Shown: piece after piece, positions 5,522-39,593 of the stretch | Numbering within the stretch: position 1 is the first letter of the stretch | Layout of the letters: each line of letters opens with the position of its first letter | NCBI GenBank assembly: GCA_017430225.1 | Contig: JAFRNK010000068.1 | Location: 1 to 39,593, forward strand | Length of the DNA stretch: 39,593 bases | Direction of reading: 5' to 3' | Source: Clostridia bacterium | Lineage (GTDB): Bacteria > Bacillota > Clostridia > Christensenellales > Aristaeellaceae | Notes under the pieces: model-generated | Database searches by the model: none | What the model saw: only the letters and a program-made list of their open reading frames with translations | What the model was told of the DNA's origin: nothing | Made by a program: the position numbers and the translations under genes

Positions 5522-6984
5522 GCCTGCTCGCCTCCTTTGACATAACCGGTGAACATGTAGGAATCGCCGTTCGTGAGCCGCACGTCCGTGACGGCTTTTT
5601 TGAGTTCTTCACGGATCATAGCGGTGATGCGCGTCTCGCAGTAGCCGCCCTGGCAACGGCCCATACTGGCGCGGGTGCGCACCTTGATGCCGTTGACAGT
5701 GCATACGCCCAGCGGATTATGGATAGCCGCGATGATCTCCGCGCGGGTGATCGTCTCGCAGCGGCAGACGATCTCGCCGTAGTCGGGGTTTTCGGAGATC
5801 AGCTTCGCCTGCTCCTCCCGGCTCGCCTCGTGGAAGCGGGTGATGCCCCTGCGGATGGGATCAAAGTCCGGATTCGGGGCCAGCTCCTCACGCTCGCGGA
5901 TCATGTTCACGACCCGGCGCGCGATCGGCAAGGCGCTCGTGAGGCCCGGGCTCTCGATGCCGACCAGGTTGACCACGCCGGGCACGTCGTCCCGGCACTC
6001 GATCAGGAAGTCCTGGACCTCGCCGGTCGCGGGATCGATCCGCTTGGGCCGCGCTCCGGCGAAAGTGCGGATGTAATAATCGCGCTTCATGTGCTTGAAC
6101 ATCCGCGCACCGCTCTCCTGCAGGCCGTCCATGCCGACCTGGCGGACGCTGTAATCCTCGCCGTCCTCGACGTTGAAGCTGTTCGGGCCGACCAGGACGT
6201 TGCCGTCCACGGTGGGCGTCGCGTGAGTATCGAAGGTGAACTTCGCGGTCGGCGCCGGATAGACCGGGATCTTCGCGAACGCGCCGGCCTTCTTGTCCAG
6301 CACGAAGTATTCGCCCTTCACTGGCTGGATCACATAGCCCGGAATGCCCAGCATGGCGCTGACCTTCGCGCTGTTGAGGCCCGCGCTGTTGACGACCCAG
6401 CGGCAGGAGAAGTCGCCCTGACTGGTATGCAGCACATGCCGCCCGTCGTCCAACCGGTCCACGCCGGTGACCTCGGTATACAGATGGTATTTCGCACCGT
6501 TTTTGACCGCGTTTTCCGCCAGCGCGATGGTGTAGATGAAGGGATCCAGGATGCCGCTGGACGGGCAGTGGATGGCAAAGTTGCCGCCCGCGGACGGATC
6601 GATCTCGTCCATGCGCTTGCGGTCGATGAGTTCCATGCCCGGTACGCCGTTGATCCTACCGCGCTCGATGAAGTATTCGAGGCGTGCTTTGTCTTCCTCA
6701 GTGAAGCCGACGATCAGCTTGCCGGTGCGCTTGAAGGGCACGCCCAGTTCCCGGGCGACTTGATCGAACTCCGCGTTGCCCTCGACCGCGCACTGCGCCT
6801 TGAGGGAACCGGGCTTGTACAGGAAGCCCGCGTGCAGCATGCCGGTGTTCCGCCCGCTGGTCTGGGTGCAGACATCGCTTTCCTTTTCCAGGACAGCGAC
6901 AGAAAGACGCCAGCGCGTCAGCTCGCGCGCCACCGCGCTGCCGACCGCTCCGCCGCCGATGATGATCACATCGTAATTTTGCAT
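5518..6984 (-). CDS. GlpA-like FAD-dependent dehydrogenase with BFD-type [2Fe-2S] tail
   Basis: A 488-residue dehydrogenase, probably glycerol-3-phosphate or a related 2-hydroxy substrate. The DAO fold starts with VIIIGGGAVGSAVAREL (6-22) and continues with TSGRNTGMLHAGF, typical of GlpA/LhgO-type enzymes. The last 80 residues are a BFD-like Fe-S domain with cysteines C407, C409, C444 and C449. AAAGGAGA precedes the ATG at 6984. First gene of a five-gene minus-strand operon; glpK lies at 20422 on the other strand, fitting glycerol use. A 2-hydroxyglutarate-type substrate is the main alternative. Confidence 0.85.
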   Translation of the reverse strand: MQNYDVIIIGGGAVGSAVARELTRWRLSVAVLEKESDVCTQTSGRNTGMLHAGFLYKPGSLKAQCAVEGNAEFDQVARELGVPFKRTGKLIVGFTEEDKARLEYFIERGRINGVPGMELIDRKRMDEIDPSAGGNFAIHCPSSGILDPFIYTIALAENAVKNGAKYHLYTEVTGVDRLDDGRHVLHTSQGDFSCRWVVNSAGLNSAKVSAMLGIPGYVIQPVKGEYFVLDKKAGAFAKIPVYPAPTAKFTFDTHATPTVDGNVLVGPNSFNVEDGEDYSVRQVGMDGLQESGARMFKHMKRDYYIRTFAGARPKRIDPATGEVQDFLIECRDDVPGVVNLVGIESPGLTSALPIARRVVNMIREREELAPNPDFDPIRRGITRFHEASREEQAKLISENPDYGEIVCRCETITRAEIIAAIHNPLGVCTVNGIKVRTRASMGRCQGGYCETRITAMIREELKKAVTDVRLTNGDSYMFTGYVKGGEQA

Positions 6985-7076
6985 GGAACCGTCTCCTTTT
7001 CAATTGTTCCTGCTCAGCTGATCGCTTCGCAGTAACCGCATGGGGACTATCGTCCCCCCTACGGAACCCCCCCCAT

Positions 7077-7180
7077 CAGATTTGCCTCTCGTGCCTGCGG
7101 CACTCCCGGGCGGCAAATCTGCAAGGTAAAAATCGCTATGCGATTTTGTCCTCGCGCCGTACACGCCGCCGCTGCGGATT
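7077..7180. repeat. Structured multi-hairpin element, copy 1
   Basis: CAGATTTGCC (7077-7086) pairs with GGCAAATCTG (7112-7121). Inside are TCTC, a hairpin GTGCC-TGC-GGCAC (7091-7103) and TCCCGGGC (7104-7111). After the linker CAAGG, AAAATCGC (7129-7136) pairs with GCGATTTT (7140-7147) over a 3-base loop, and a conserved 31-base tail follows (7150-7180). Copy 2 lies at 39456-39583 with identical spacing in the first stem and compensated base changes. Confidence 0.8.
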
Positions 7181-7217
7181 TTAACAGAAGGGTTCCCTCT
7201 CTGTACTCCCCTTTTCA

Positions 7218-7315
7218 TGGTATTCAACGCGCTTCCATCCCATCGCCCTAAGGGTGTGCTTCGCACATCCGCCGAATGAATCGGCGGACTCCGGGATTCC
7301 GCTTCTTGAATACCA
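7218..7315. repeat. Cruciform-like palindrome upstream of the GlpA-like operon
   Basis: TGGTATTCAA (7218-7227) pairs with TTGAATACCA (7306-7315). The interior contains TGTGC-TTC-GCACA and an eight-pair hairpin TCCGCCGA/TCGGCGGA. It has the same style as the neighbouring structured element (outer stem, short inner hairpin, CTCCGGGA before the closing arm) but a different sequence. Confidence 0.65.
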
Positions 7316-7412
7316 CATCGTGCACCTCTCACATCTTCCTGGTTACTTTGCTTTTCAAATGCGTGTGACTATGTTTTGGCGGCAGGGGTTGCAAACTTTG
7401 TTGACATGTATT

Positions 7413-7441
7413 ATAGTACAGGGGAATTAACAACTTGTCAA
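7413..7441 (-). promoter_or_regulatory. Predicted promoter of the GlpA-like operon
   Basis: On the minus strand, TTGACA (7441-7436), a 17-base spacer and TACTAT (7418-7413). It overlaps the LysR promoter region, and a GTTGACA/TGTCAAC inverted pair (7400-7406 and 7436-7442) spans it, a plausible LysR binding zone. Confidence 0.5.
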
Positions 7442-25465: not shown

Positions 25466-26422
25466 ATGGATATCCTGGAAAAGCTTTCCCTTGCCGGTCT
25501 GGTTCCGGTCATTGCAATCAATGACGCCGAGGACGCGGTGCCGCTGTGCAAAGCGCTGGCAGACGGCGGTCTGCCGGTCGCGGAGATCACCTTCCGTACG
25601 GCAGCGGCTGAAGAAGCCATTCGCCGGGTGCACGAAGCGCTCCCGGAGGTCATCCTCTGCGCAGGCACCGTGCTGACCACCGAACAGGCGGACCGCGCGG
25701 TCAAAGCCGGCGCTGCGGCCATCGTCTCTCCGGGACTCAACCCCGAAGTGGTACGCTGGTGCATCGATCACAACGTGCCCGTCTGCCCCGGCACCGCTAA
25801 TCCCTCGGATATCGAGGTCGCGCTGTCCCTGGGCCTGAAGGCGGTCAAGTTCTTCCCGGCGGAGCCCCTCGGCGGCCTGAAGCTGATCAAGGCCATGGCA
25901 GCGCCGTACGGCAGCGTGCACTTCATGCCCACCGGCGGTATCAATGAGCAAAACATGCTCGACTACCTGAACTTTGACAAGATCCTCTGCTGCGGCGGCA
26001 GCTGGATGGTACCCAGCGACGCCGTGAAGGCGAAGGACTGGCAGAAGATCACCGACCTGACCCGCAGCGCGGTCGACAAGATGCTGGGCTTCGAGCTCCG
26101 CCACGTCGGCATCAACTCCGGCAATCCCGAGCAGGCTCAGAAGGACGCCGAAAAGCTTGCGAAGCTCCTCAACTGGCCCGTGAAACCCGGCAACAGCTCC
26201 GTCTTCGCAGGCGTCGGCTTCGAGTGCATGAAAGAGCCCGGCCGCGGCGAGAAGGGCCACATCGCCATCGCCACCAACTTCATCCGCCGTGCGAAGTGGC
26301 ACCTGGAGCAGCGCGGCTACGAGTTCGACGAGAGCAGCATCAAGGAAAAGAACGGCAAGATGACCGCGATCTATCTGAAGGACGATATCTGCGGCTTCGC
26401 GTTCCATCTGGTTCAGAAGTAA
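25466..26422 (+). CDS. eda: KDPG/KHG aldolase fused to a C-terminal VOC-like domain
   Basis: Eda cleaves 2-keto-3-deoxy-6-phosphogluconate to pyruvate and glyceraldehyde 3-phosphate. The aldolase part (about 1-212) has the catalytic E40 in VAEITFRT, the phosphate/carboxylate region PTGGIN (156-161), and the Schiff-base lysine K128 in VKFFPAE. The last 100 residues (VGINSGNPEQAQKDAEKLAK, then a FAGVGFECM strand and GHIAIATNFI) look like a VOC/glyoxalase-type fold absent from the 210-residue E. coli enzyme. Longer Eda proteins of this size occur in clostridia, to my recollection. AAAGGAGA precedes ATG 25466. It closes the galacturonate gene set. Confidence 0.88.
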   Translation: MDILEKLSLAGLVPVIAINDAEDAVPLCKALADGGLPVAEITFRTAAAEEAIRRVHEALPEVILCAGTVLTTEQADRAVKAGAAAIVSPGLNPEVVRWCIDHNVPVCPGTANPSDIEVALSLGLKAVKFFPAEPLGGLKLIKAMAAPYGSVHFMPTGGINEQNMLDYLNFDKILCCGGSWMVPSDAVKAKDWQKITDLTRSAVDKMLGFELRHVGINSGNPEQAQKDAEKLAKLLNWPVKPGNSSVFAGVGFECMKEPGRGEKGHIAIATNFIRRAKWHLEQRGYEFDESSIKEKNGKMTAIYLKDDICGFAFHLVQK

Positions 26423-26441
26423 ACTTTTAGTTCAACCATAT

Positions 26442-26468
26442 AGACCGCTTAATTCGGCGGTCTTTTTT
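26442..26468 (+). terminator. Terminator after eda
   Basis: AGACCGC (26442-26448) pairs with GCGGTCT (26457-26463) around an 8-base loop, followed by TTTTT. The T-run overlaps the end of the stem. Confidence 0.9.
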
Positions 26469-26516
26469 GTTTCTATAACCAGATTCTATCACTTAATTTT
26501 CAAATGGCATTTATTA

Positions 26517-26546
26517 TTGAAATGCTATTTATTACTATGATATAAT
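26517..26546 (+). promoter_or_regulatory. Predicted promoter of the AT-rich membrane glycosyltransferase gene
   Basis: TTGAAA (26517-26522), 18-base spacer, TATAAT (26541-26546), leaving a leader of about 195 bases before the ATG at 26747. Confidence 0.65.
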
Positions 26547-26746
26547 CTATATGGTTCAAGTGATGCTATGGAAAGGGGCAACTTTATCATGAAACCGCTC
26601 TACTGAAAAACATGCTCAAAGCAATTTTTCTTTTGTCAATAAATATATCGCAGGTTTAACCTTCTTCTTTTGATGCGGTTGGATATATGGGAACAGGAAG
26701 AATTATAAGTAACAAAACAGGCATGTCTATTCGAGGGGTATAAAGT

Positions 26747-28864
26747 ATGAGCATTCAATTAATCAAGAACAATGATAAGACTACACTAAAAGCACAAAAA
26801 GGCATGAAGAATGAAAAAATGAGTGCAACCAAATACCATGGGCATTTGTCAATGCATGTAAAACTGACAATCCTGTTTCTGGCTTCATTTTTAATTCACA
26901 CTATACTCAATATTTGGGTCAATCAAGGTCCGACTGTTGTCATAGATGAAGGATTATACACGAATATTGCGCGGTCACTGGCATGGGACGGAGAGTTGGC
27001 TTTTCGCGGACAACCAGTAAGCTATCCCTACTTGCTCTATCCCTTTCTGCTTGTACCGATCTACTGGTTGAATCGTGTTTTAGGCGGCGACATATATAGA
27101 TTTGTCCAGGTTTTTAATACACTGCTAATCACATCATCGGTTTTTCCTGCATATTATTTTTCAAAAGATTATACGAAAGACGAGAAAAAAGCGTTTATTG
27201 TCGCTCTCATTGTGACGTTAATGCCTGACATGATCATGGGAGGCTATGAGATGACAGAGTGTCTCTTATGGCCTTTAGCATTATGGATGATGTTCTTTAG
27301 CTATCGTTATTATAATGGCACAACATTAAAAGATGGCTTATTGACTGCGCTGTTTGCCGGACTGATGTTTGCTGCAAAGCCTGGTGCTGTTGCTATGGGA
27401 GCAGTTTTATTATTCTTATATCTGCTCAAAACAATTAAAACGAAAAAAGCCTGTCTGCAGGCATTCCTTCCTATACTGCTGCTGTTGGCAGTAATTGGTA
27501 CAGTATATGTTATTTATTTATTTTTCAGTGTGAATAGTTCAATACTTGGGTTATACGTTAAACAGACATCTGAATGGACATCAAAAGATATTCTGGTATC
27601 AATTGAAGCTTGCTTCTTGTTAATGTTTTTGTTTTTGTTCTCCTGCGGAGGAATATTTGGTGTTTATCCATTCTCACATCTAAAAGAAAATGATGATATA
27701 AAAAGGAATTATATCCTTTCTGTAGTTCTCGGAATCCTGACAGTCATTATTGGTACAGCCATATTTGTAGTACCTTATAAATGGGACGGAAGCTTAGGAT
27801 ATCTTCCTTTGCATCTGCGTTATTGCTCTATGTTTATACCTGCGATGATTGTGTTTTCGATTGATCAGGACACGGATTTCAAAAAGAAGTCCAATAAAGC
27901 ATTCATTATTTCGTTAGTTTTGGTTATCATCCTGTCAATATTCCCGGGTGCTCGTGCAGGGTTTGTGAAAGGGCATACAGGAACTATAGACAATGTTACT
28001 CTGAGCGCTTTTGTTCAGACACAGAATCTCAACGGAAATGTTACTGGCTGGATTCTGACCCTTTTTGTTGTAATATCCGTATTATTATATATTTCTCTGT
28101 ACATAGAAAAGAAAAACAGAAATAAAAACGGGATACTTTACAGATTCAGCATTGCATATCTTGTTATATTCACTCTTTTTAATTCGGTTTGCGCCCATGT
28201 TAGTGCAAACGTATATATTGATCCGACTATAGGAGCTGACGTCAACCAATTGAATCACATGATAGGAAATAAGCGCTGTCTGGGAATAACTCAACGTTAT
28301 TATGACGACATCTATTCTTATTGGCTGGACGGTAGGCTAAATGTACCAATGCAACAAGTGACAATTGATCAAATGTTTCTTGAGGCAGAAAAAACCAATG
28401 GATTATATCACCCATTTGTACCAATAGAACAAGCCCCGAATATTAACAACCACGAAACGCCTGATACCAATACTTTCGTATTAGGCATGACTATAGCAGA
28501 GCATCTTGAACTCAGTGATACAACAACAGCAATCAAAACAGATCACGGACATTTTTCTATTGTGGATATCAAACCAGAGACAAGATGGGTTGATACAATG
28601 ATGTACGGTTTAGATGATAATCATTTATATGCAGGCAAAACAGGATACATCCACGTTTTTTCTGACGACCGTAACATAGACGGGAACATATACTTGAGTG
28701 TTACTGCATCAGGCAACGGAACCTTGAAGATAAATCAACACAGCATAAAAATGAGTTCTCAGCCAAAAACATATGAGATAACCATACCTTATAGTAGCAT
28801 TATTACTCTTCTGGCCAATGAAGGAACAATCAGTATCGAAAGCTATTCAACACGAAGAAAGTGA
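26747..28864 (+). CDS. Multi-pass GT-C glycosyltransferase-like membrane protein, AT-rich and probably acquired
   Basis: A 705-residue membrane protein of the ArnT/PMT-like GT-C superfamily. After the first helix (about 39-57) an extracellular loop carries the acidic pair D67-E68 in VVIDEGLYTNIARSLAWDGE, the expected catalytic position. About ten further helices run to roughly residue 490, followed by a soluble extracytoplasmic C-terminal domain of about 215 residues. Such enzymes use polyprenyl-phosphate sugars to modify lipids, wall polymers or proteins. Codon use (many TTA, ATA, AGA) and base composition differ strikingly from all neighbours, suggesting lateral acquisition. GAGGGG lies eight bases before the ATG. 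Acceptor and donor are unknown. Confidence 0.75.
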   Translation: MSIQLIKNNDKTTLKAQKGMKNEKMSATKYHGHLSMHVKLTILFLASFLIHTILNIWVNQGPTVVIDEGLYTNIARSLAWDGELAFRGQPVSYPYLLYPFLLVPIYWLNRVLGGDIYRFVQVFNTLLITSSVFPAYYFSKDYTKDEKKAFIVALIVTLMPDMIMGGYEMTECLLWPLALWMMFFSYRYYNGTTLKDGLLTALFAGLMFAAKPGAVAMGAVLLFLYLLKTIKTKKACLQAFLPILLLLAVIGTVYVIYLFFSVNSSILGLYVKQTSEWTSKDILVSIEACFLLMFLFLFSCGGIFGVYPFSHLKENDDIKRNYILSVVLGILTVIIGTAIFVVPYKWDGSLGYLPLHLRYCSMFIPAMIVFSIDQDTDFKKKSNKAFIISLVLVIILSIFPGARAGFVKGHTGTIDNVTLSAFVQTQNLNGNVTGWILTLFVVISVLLYISLYIEKKNRNKNGILYRFSIAYLVIFTLFNSVCAHVSANVYIDPTIGADVNQLNHMIGNKRCLGITQRYYDDIYSYWLDGRLNVPMQQVTIDQMFLEAEKTNGLYHPFVPIEQAPNINNHETPDTNTFVLGMTIAEHLELSDTTTAIKTDHGHFSIVDIKPETRWVDTMMYGLDDNHLYAGKTGYIHVFSDDRNIDGNIYLSVTASGNGTLKINQHSIKMSSQPKTYEITIPYSSIITLLANEGTISIESYSTRRK

Positions 28865-39400: not shown

Positions 39401-39455
39401 GGGGTTGTTGCACAACCCCTTCGATCAAATGGATACTCCATTTGATCGACAAAAA

Positions 39456-39583
39456 CACCTTTTCCTCTCGCACCTACGGTGCTCCCGGGCGGAAAAGGTG
39501 CAAGGAAAGCATTTTTGCTCTCGCAGGGCAAGCTCTGCTTCGCAAAAATGCTCCTCGCACCGCACATGTCGCTGCTGCGGATT
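39456..39583. repeat. Structured multi-hairpin element, copy 2
   Basis: CACCTTTTCC (39456-39465) pairs with GGAAAAGGTG (39491-39500), enclosing TCTC, hairpin GCACC-TAC-GGTGC (39470-39482) and TCCCGGGC (39483-39490), the same geometry as 7077-7121. After CAAGG, AGCATTTTTGC (39508-39518) pairs with GCAAAAATGCT (39542-39552) around a 23-base inner structure. The 31-base tail (39553-39583) matches 7150-7180 at 26 positions. Confidence 0.8.
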
Positions 39584-39593
39584 ACACTTGGAG

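Follow-up and report, generated by a model that had tools for sequence, protein, structure and literature searches.

A mobile family of hairpin-built intergenic repeats with covarying stems in the bacterial order Christensenellales

The stretch of DNA analysed here, referred to as the window, is 39,593 nucleotides long and represents contig C59 of a Clostridia bacterium genome (assembly GCA_017430225.1, here G000; 2.65 Mb, 131 contigs, 82% complete). Two copies of a repeat built from hairpins are present on its forward strand. Copy 1, an element of type A, lies between a FAD-dependent oxidoreductase gene on the minus strand and a LysR-type regulator gene on the plus strand, and is best delimited as a whole insertion of about 7006..7346, on the basis of its absence from the orthologous junction in five congeners (see below); the feature is thus larger than the segment 7077-7180 described in an earlier note. 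Its right end, GTTAC, was placed by analogy with the sharp right end ...TGACTGAATAGTTAC of congener G007, and its left edge is less certain. From left to right, copy 1 consists of a left-end hairpin, GTTcCTGC...GCAGtAAC (7006..7036), that occupies the position of the left-end terminal inverted repeat hairpin of other type A copies; a hairpin H0 (7037..7063), which also has a counterpart in other type A copies; a hairpin H1 (7077..7121), defined by pairing and covariation counts, with a 10-bp stem, a 4 x 8 internal loop and a 5-bp apical hairpin; the linker CAAGG (7122..7126); an optional and hypervariable hairpin H2 (7129..7147) and a hairpin H3 with the loop TACACGC (7154..7172; consensus YRCAYGY), both defined from alignments; a hairpin H4 read from the sequence (7184..7204); and a large 3' stem-loop (GGTATTCAA...TTGAATACC; 7219..7314), again with a counterpart in other type A copies.

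Copy 2 (39401..39593) is an element of type B that is cut off by the contig end, and it was delimited by comparison with a complete counterpart on another contig of the same genome (L011/L069, G000:C42). It comprises the left-end hairpin GGGGTTGTTGCACAACCCC common to type B copies (39401..39419), H0 (39421..39449) and the linker CAAGG (39501..39505), both read from the sequence, H1 by pair count (39456..39500), a long form of H2 found by DNA folding (39508..39552), and H3 with the loop CACATGT (39557..39575), positioned as in the two alignments described below. Ten type B copies with both ends measure 296-339 bp, and eight of these measure 321-326 bp. Elsewhere in the window, positions 26001-28000 have a G+C content of 0.42 against about 0.6 around them, and a 705-aa frame at 26747-28864 gives a weak match to a mannosyltransferase domain (PMT_2), perhaps representing a recent acquisition.

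The earlier note had proposed that the two H1 hairpins share one geometry, and a re-reading of both copies bears this out: all 15 pairs are Watson-Crick in each copy, and exactly five pairs differ between the copies, each being changed on both sides, with 34 of the 45 bases of H1 in common. The conserved tail (7150-7180 versus 39553-39583) matches at 26 of 31 bases and the linker is present in both copies, as had been stated, while H2 is indeed unlike in sequence and length (19 versus 45 nt) and yet paired in both. Folded as single-stranded DNA, both copies fold better than shuffled sequences, with z-scores of -3.41 for copy 1 and -4.57 for copy 2. The likeness of the two copies is not a matter of chance, because about 25 instances of this core are present in the genome. 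In a search of the genome with positions 7077-7185, 35 matches were obtained at E values of up to 10, of which about 25 show the core, although a few of these may be halves of one copy since several are cut by contig ends.

Across these and other copies, the core has the order H1, CAAGG, optional H2 and H3. H1 has a stem of 10-11 bp, an asymmetric internal loop with CCGGGC ending its 3' side, and an apical hairpin, while H3 has a short stem, one mostly mismatched position (often C.C), then a C-G and a G-C pair that close a 7-nt YRCAYGY loop, within which RCATGY is usually self-complementary. Outside the core are the left-end hairpin, H0 and H4, to which type A adds the large 3' stem-loop. In 98 copies found by BLAST only, H1 is followed directly by CAAGG in 66 cases and by TAAGG or AAAGG in 14, and 92 have YRCAYGY farther downstream. 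The idea of a leader peptide initiated at the ATG of the H3 loop was considered and dropped, as copy 1 has ACG at this position and the spacing from AAGG varies. Two type A copies (L213 and L268) have additional G+C-rich sequence (GCGCGCGCACCGCGGGC...) within the 3' stem-loop, resembling a second, nested small repeat. Two partial type B copies (L027 and L028; G000:C130 and C101) are broken by another repeated sequence containing CAATTCGGCATTGTCGC, which also adjoins a copy in G007 (L210).

Further copies, which the earlier note had suggested be sought, are present in all seven congeners searched. The family occupies intergenic positions in uncultured bacteria of the gut and rumen. When one complete type A and one complete type B element were used as queries, matches were found in 13 and 16, respectively, of 60 genomes of relatives, the eight members of the genus all being among them. 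At least 110 stretches of named genomes contain a 17-mer taken from the H3 region, and 62 of the 110 pass a layout test for H1 and an AAGG-like linker. Among the 80 matches listed, 70 bear Clostridia or Bacillota names, some of them Candidatus Limiplasma; the other ten (from Acidimicrobiaceae, Kuenenia, Paracoccaceae, Betaproteobacteria and Myxococcota) all fail the layout test and look like chance matches, and some other failures are incomplete or diverged true copies (for instance, L164 and L178). With a covariance model (R1) built from 20 copies, the family was found in at least 22 of 297 genomes of the order (at least 17 of 126 genera), with a patchy distribution, and across the phylum G000 alone was positive among 299 genomes drawn; these counts are lower bounds because at most 14 candidates were scored per genome under strict filters. 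Two viral scans gave one match each, and the match in L308 has the repeat layout while that in L307 does not. The L308 copy (about 5937-6130 of IMGVR_UViG_3300003155_000022, a contig with a viral classification) is flanked by an open frame on each side, so that either phages can carry the element or the contig is of bacterial origin.

The layout had been said to belong to no named family, and this agrees with the absence of any Rfam match at gathering score in the whole window, and of any description of the family among the search listings of open-licence papers. Permissive Rfam scans of 6980-7420 and of four named loci gave only sub-gathering matches and nothing for the core. Those overlapping copy 1 (mir-19, Acido-Lenti-1, Clostridiales-2 and RsmY) reach 9-15 bits, their gathering scores being at least 37, and the T-box, nhaA-I and ALIL matches lie elsewhere in the named loci. 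An early scaffold pattern, in which the spacing was off, gave 8 matches versus 11 for a backward control, and these look like chance.

The pairing of the core is maintained by compensating changes. Cores were picked for AAGG, the loop pattern and a stem of at least seven pairs (G.T allowed), and those in both alignments had at least nine; thus AAGG is invariant in the alignments by construction, and H1 pairing, the loop and its two closing pairs are partly so, while no selection was applied to the apical stem, H2 or the remainder of H3. In the alignment of 39 type A cores (A1, which includes two L157 copies and omits L050 and L079, of other layout), 95.9% of 1137 cells are paired against a shuffled mean of 78.5%, and double changes occur in 18 of 30 pairs. 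The 192 double-changed cells compare with 59.7 after shuffling, and the covariation score of 0.450 with 0.151, none of 500 shuffles being as high; the signal is destroyed by sliding the partners by 1-3 columns. This is the covariation in a many-copy alignment for which the earlier note had called, although the cells are not independent events, because a single genus contributes many of the rows, with changes in common. The number of further pair types in A1 is not above that in shuffles (470 of 500 as high). In the parts of A1 that were not selected for, the apical stem is 98.4% paired with double changes in all five pairs, and H2 is 96.8% paired with double changes in six of eight.

A second alignment (A2) holds 20 of 26 short or Limiplasma-type cores, three short cores (one of two in L123, L126, L189) and a second L155 copy having been dropped and the two L157 copies assigned to A1, and H2 is missing in 14 of its 20 rows. 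In these distant cores, 93.0% of 573 cells are paired, double changes occur in 24 of 34 pairs, and 114 cells are double-changed versus 32.8 in shuffles (0 of 500 as high). The pair counts cover A1 and A2, the 27 type B cores being left out. Among the 98 distinct BLAST-only copies, 10, 9, 8 and 7 of the 10 H1 pairs are Watson-Crick in 75, 17, 5 and 1 copies, respectively; nine or ten pairs are thus formed in 92 of 98, as opposed to 1 of 490 shuffled sequences.

That the repeats move is evident from empty sites. The copy 1 insertion is absent, and the same two genes are adjacent, in five of the seven congeners searched (G001, G003, G005, G006 and G007), while the gene pair was not shown in G002 and G004. 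Similarly, the 220-bp insertion in L162 has an empty site in two genomes (G394 and G413) with flanks 80-90% identical, and in the other four genomes of that search only one flank was matched; for L007 and L074, homologous flanks yielded no orthologous junction. In the case of G007, the type A right end has 20 exact matches, and at the ten contig ends inspected each is followed by different DNA, the right end being exact or nearly so in nine and changed in one (L266), which suggests a recent burst of type A copies in this genome. Many contig ends in G007 (for instance, L259-L269) fall inside near-identical type A copies, the assembly being fragmented by the burst. When the neighbours of 78 copies were called with a home-made gene caller, 51 of 77 upstream genes (p = 0.006) and 48 of 76 downstream genes (p = 0.03) shared the strand of the element. 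Such a bias fits insertion beside terminators, and it fits a 3'-UTR role as well.

The ends of the elements fall into several types and vary from lineage to lineage. Type A has the terminal inverted repeats GTAACTATTCAGTC/GACTGAATAGTTAC, which are degenerate in copy 1; type B has GGGGTTGTTGCA/TGCAACATCCCC, with one mismatch; and a further class, here called the CAG class, has the ends CAG..TGTCGAAAAA. Direct repeats scoring at least 13 flank 14 of the 133 copies with enough flanking sequence, versus 5 of 665 mispaired controls, among which the top score is 34 and some pairs are probably orthologous loci. Eight copies score 24-35 (L103, L347, L184, L186, L202, L326, L141 and L125), and in each, as judged by eye, the duplication of 24-35 bp includes a complete terminator-like palindrome. 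The left end begins with CAG in seven of these copies, and none of the eight is in the genus of the window. In other cases the repeats are shorter or imperfect but of the palindrome type (L115, L155, L079 and L153), or hold no palindrome (L047 and L175, score 13). In L334 (G510) the element lies, by eye, between two long direct repeats with a terminator-like hairpin, longer than elsewhere. For the window copies and other copies of the genus no target duplication was recognised, bar a possible offset CTTTTCAA repeat at copy 1 seen by eye, and a preference of type B copies for palindromic flanks was unsupported (mean 3.4 versus 3.31 for shuffles, 858 of 2000 as high).

A candidate source of the CAG-class ends is suggested by genome G612, which carries both the repeat and two IS1182-like transposase loci (L367 and L368) with ends CAGCC(T/A)GTCGA(A/G)AAA. 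L368 is bounded by CAGCCTGTCGAGAAA and TTTTTCGACAGGCTG, with a near-identical palindrome, A(G/A)TCA(G/A)TTTCTGCAGAAACTGATT, on both sides, while L367 is bounded by CAGCCAGTCGAAAAA and TTTCTCGACAGGCTG and lies between two different palindromes; its frame scores 262.9 bits to the NCBI IS1182 transposase model, just below the cut-off of 270, and matches PF13751 above the cut-off. Compared with the best of these four IS ends, and without a chance control, the left ends of the eight duplicated copies agree at 13-16 of 20 bases and four of the right ends at 15-17 of 20; the other four right ends, at 4-9 of 20, look out of register. The IS1182-type domain PF13751 was detected in two of the 12 carrier genomes searched (G431 and G612), and no such pair of IS ends was seen at L366 in G431. 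It was not detected in the other ten carriers, assemblies that are incomplete and include G000, and no autonomous partner for type A or type B ends was found. The link to IS1182 is thus supported for the CAG class, and for the window copies it is inferred.

Taken together, the repeat family is real, mobile and built of hairpins, is new as a family as far as the searches show, and is a variant of known non-autonomous transposons. The reading preferred here, with a probability of roughly 0.77, is that the repeats are short, non-coding, non-autonomous, MITE-like mobile elements in which an array of hairpins is arranged around a conserved core. The elements insert between genes, in some instances recently, as the empty sites show, and their core hairpins are kept by compensating changes of the kind counted above. 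In the CAG class, where the duplications are seen, insertion duplicates a terminator-like palindrome of 24-35 bp, and a hairpin-targeting DDE transposase of the IS1182 type may cut on either side of the palindrome and insert the element there; types A and B, with their other ends, were probably moved in the same way by other transposases. The core might act as folded DNA, either as a cruciform or as a single strand, to which a protein would bind, and putative recognition may involve the palindromic RCATGY loop of H3 together with the CAAGG and CCGGGC strands, steps that are put forward with less assurance. The earlier note had attributed the repeat to selection on nucleic-acid structure, as an RNA or as a DNA element such as a REP-like or mobile site; the branch of mobile DNA hairpins is supported by the many copies, the strong covariation, the lack of an Rfam match, the empty sites and the target duplications.

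The role of the core may lie in transposition, or also in the host, given how slowly copies evolve after landing. In a set of 167 copies with long flanks there are five pairs with orthology on both sides. In these pairs the H1-H3 core has 7 differences in 625 positions and the flanks have 368 in 4500, a 7.3-fold contrast (p about 7e-14) obtained from few loci in few related genomes, with flank windows that may include coding sequence. Over a wider unit, 30 of 1200 positions differ, or 3.3-fold fewer, and by eye most changes are in linkers, loops or the 3' tail; the pair L048/L105, with flanks only 54% alike, was left out of the count. Homogenisation does not explain the conservation at the L162 locus, because no other copy in that genome exceeds 86% identity, and the matches cover partial stretches. 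These rates suggest that individual copies are under selection, or that their mutation rate is unusually low, and since the core differs about sevenfold less than its flanks, it may act after landing. Plain transposon copies should drift, and the five conserved pairs count against the MITE-like reading, as do the ten carriers in which PF13751 was not detected, the lack of a recognised target duplication in the genus of the window, the variation of the ends between lineages and the four poorly matching right ends. A possible, if clearly less probable, alternative to the MITE-like reading is that the core (H1-CAAGG-H3) is a folded-DNA device useful to the host, carried between gene ends by several unrelated transposon ends and then under purifying selection at each site. 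Such a device may be, for instance, a cruciform or hairpin to which a protein binds, serving to insulate or terminate transcription or to organise DNA, and would, if true, constitute a new class of dispersed, domesticated DNA-structure element.

The same slow evolution, the strong covariation, and the frequent location of copies close behind the end of an upstream gene on the same strand are also what would be seen if the repeat were a dispersed structured RNA, either a 3'-UTR element or a small RNA, and selected as such. In a strand acting as RNA, however, G.U would be expected to be tolerated far more than A.C. Even though the picking allowed G.T and not A.C, the two mismatches number 15 and 13 in A1 and A2 together, and a set chosen by Watson-Crick pairing only, comprising 66 distinct H1 stems plus the short-form H3 stems, has 11 G.T and 12 A.C beside 769 Watson-Crick cells. 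By comparison, 31 tRNAs from the fetched loci and T5, a small control drawn largely from one phage, have 25 G.T and 3 A.C (Fisher p = 0.0018). Because G.T and A.C are equally rare, unlike in tRNA, the pairing looks like that of DNA, and the data point to pairing at the DNA level or to arm-to-arm correction of palindromes. In addition, no Rfam family matches at gathering score, copies just past a terminator would be poorly transcribed, and copy 1 of the window sits between divergent gene starts. The RNA branch of the earlier proposal is thereby weakened, and selection as RNA is considered unlikely.

Arm-to-arm correction is itself the basis of another explanation, namely that template switching in quasi-palindromes copies one arm onto the other, which would make selection for structure unneeded. 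Paired double changes without an excess of G.T are predicted by this mechanism and are what is observed, but it leaves unexplained the unpaired CAAGG and YRCAYGY motifs that recur in most BLAST-found copies, and the scarcity of changes across the entire unit, including its loops, at orthologous sites. Stems changing in pairs beside freely drifting loops were not seen in the five orthologous pairs, and template switching as the sole explanation is judged improbable.

Least probable is a REP- or REPIN-type repeat moved on single-stranded hairpins by a Y1 (HUH) REP-associated transposase, a reading that is favoured by the palindromic, intergenic and high-copy nature of the family and by the mismatches kept in its stems, but for which strict membership is unsupported because a Y1_Tnp domain (PF01797) is present in only 4 of 12 carriers searched and in neither the genome of the window nor G007, the six Y1 matches have no core or GTAAC-type end nearby (one imperfect CAG-type end each in L369 and L371), some elements have target duplications, and the elements measure about 200-340 bp against the 20-40 bp given for REPs in PMC3733652. 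Of the GTAG (or CGTC) tetranucleotide that precedes the palindrome in REPs, no constant GTAG was noticed in an uncounted reading of A1 and A2, and recognition of REPs, in the excerpted text of PMC8266576, depends on an imperfect palindrome with a bulge.

The MITE-like elements preferred here are of interest for three reasons. Hairpins of a repeat are kept across a bacterial order at what looks like the DNA level; one class of the repeat is linked to hairpin-targeting IS1182-like transposons, with insertion leaving a terminator-like hairpin on each side; and there is the testable puzzle of why individual mobile-element copies should evolve at a lower rate than their surroundings.

Among known systems, REP/REPIN sequences with their transposase TnpA_REP (RAYT) are similar in being high-copy, intergenic, imperfect palindromes that are non-autonomous and for which structure matters, as portrayed in the same part of PMC8266576. 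The present family differs in being much longer, in having several hairpins and, in one class, target duplications, and in the lack of Y1 in 8 of 12 carriers. There is also a likeness to the IS1182 family, and the two IS1182-like elements in G612 have nearly the ends of the CAG class. For a member of that family, IS1272 (TnSha1), the sections of PMC4923244 drawn on describe a DDE transposase that inserts at hairpins, several of them terminators, without a primary-sequence consensus, and that cuts blunt, deletes part of the hairpin and makes no target duplication. Here, in contrast, the palindrome is duplicated, and the repeats lack a transposase gene and have a conserved core of hairpins. The bcr1 repeat of the Bacillus cereus group, compared by its description in part of PMC2267715, is likewise a Firmicute repeat (about 150 bp) with a conserved fold and the character of a mobile element. 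Bacterial MITEs and the BOX and RUP elements are, as far as the partial descriptions used extend, also short non-autonomous or interspersed repeats, from which the present family is set apart by having one core across several unrelated types of ends, with covariation that extends across the order.
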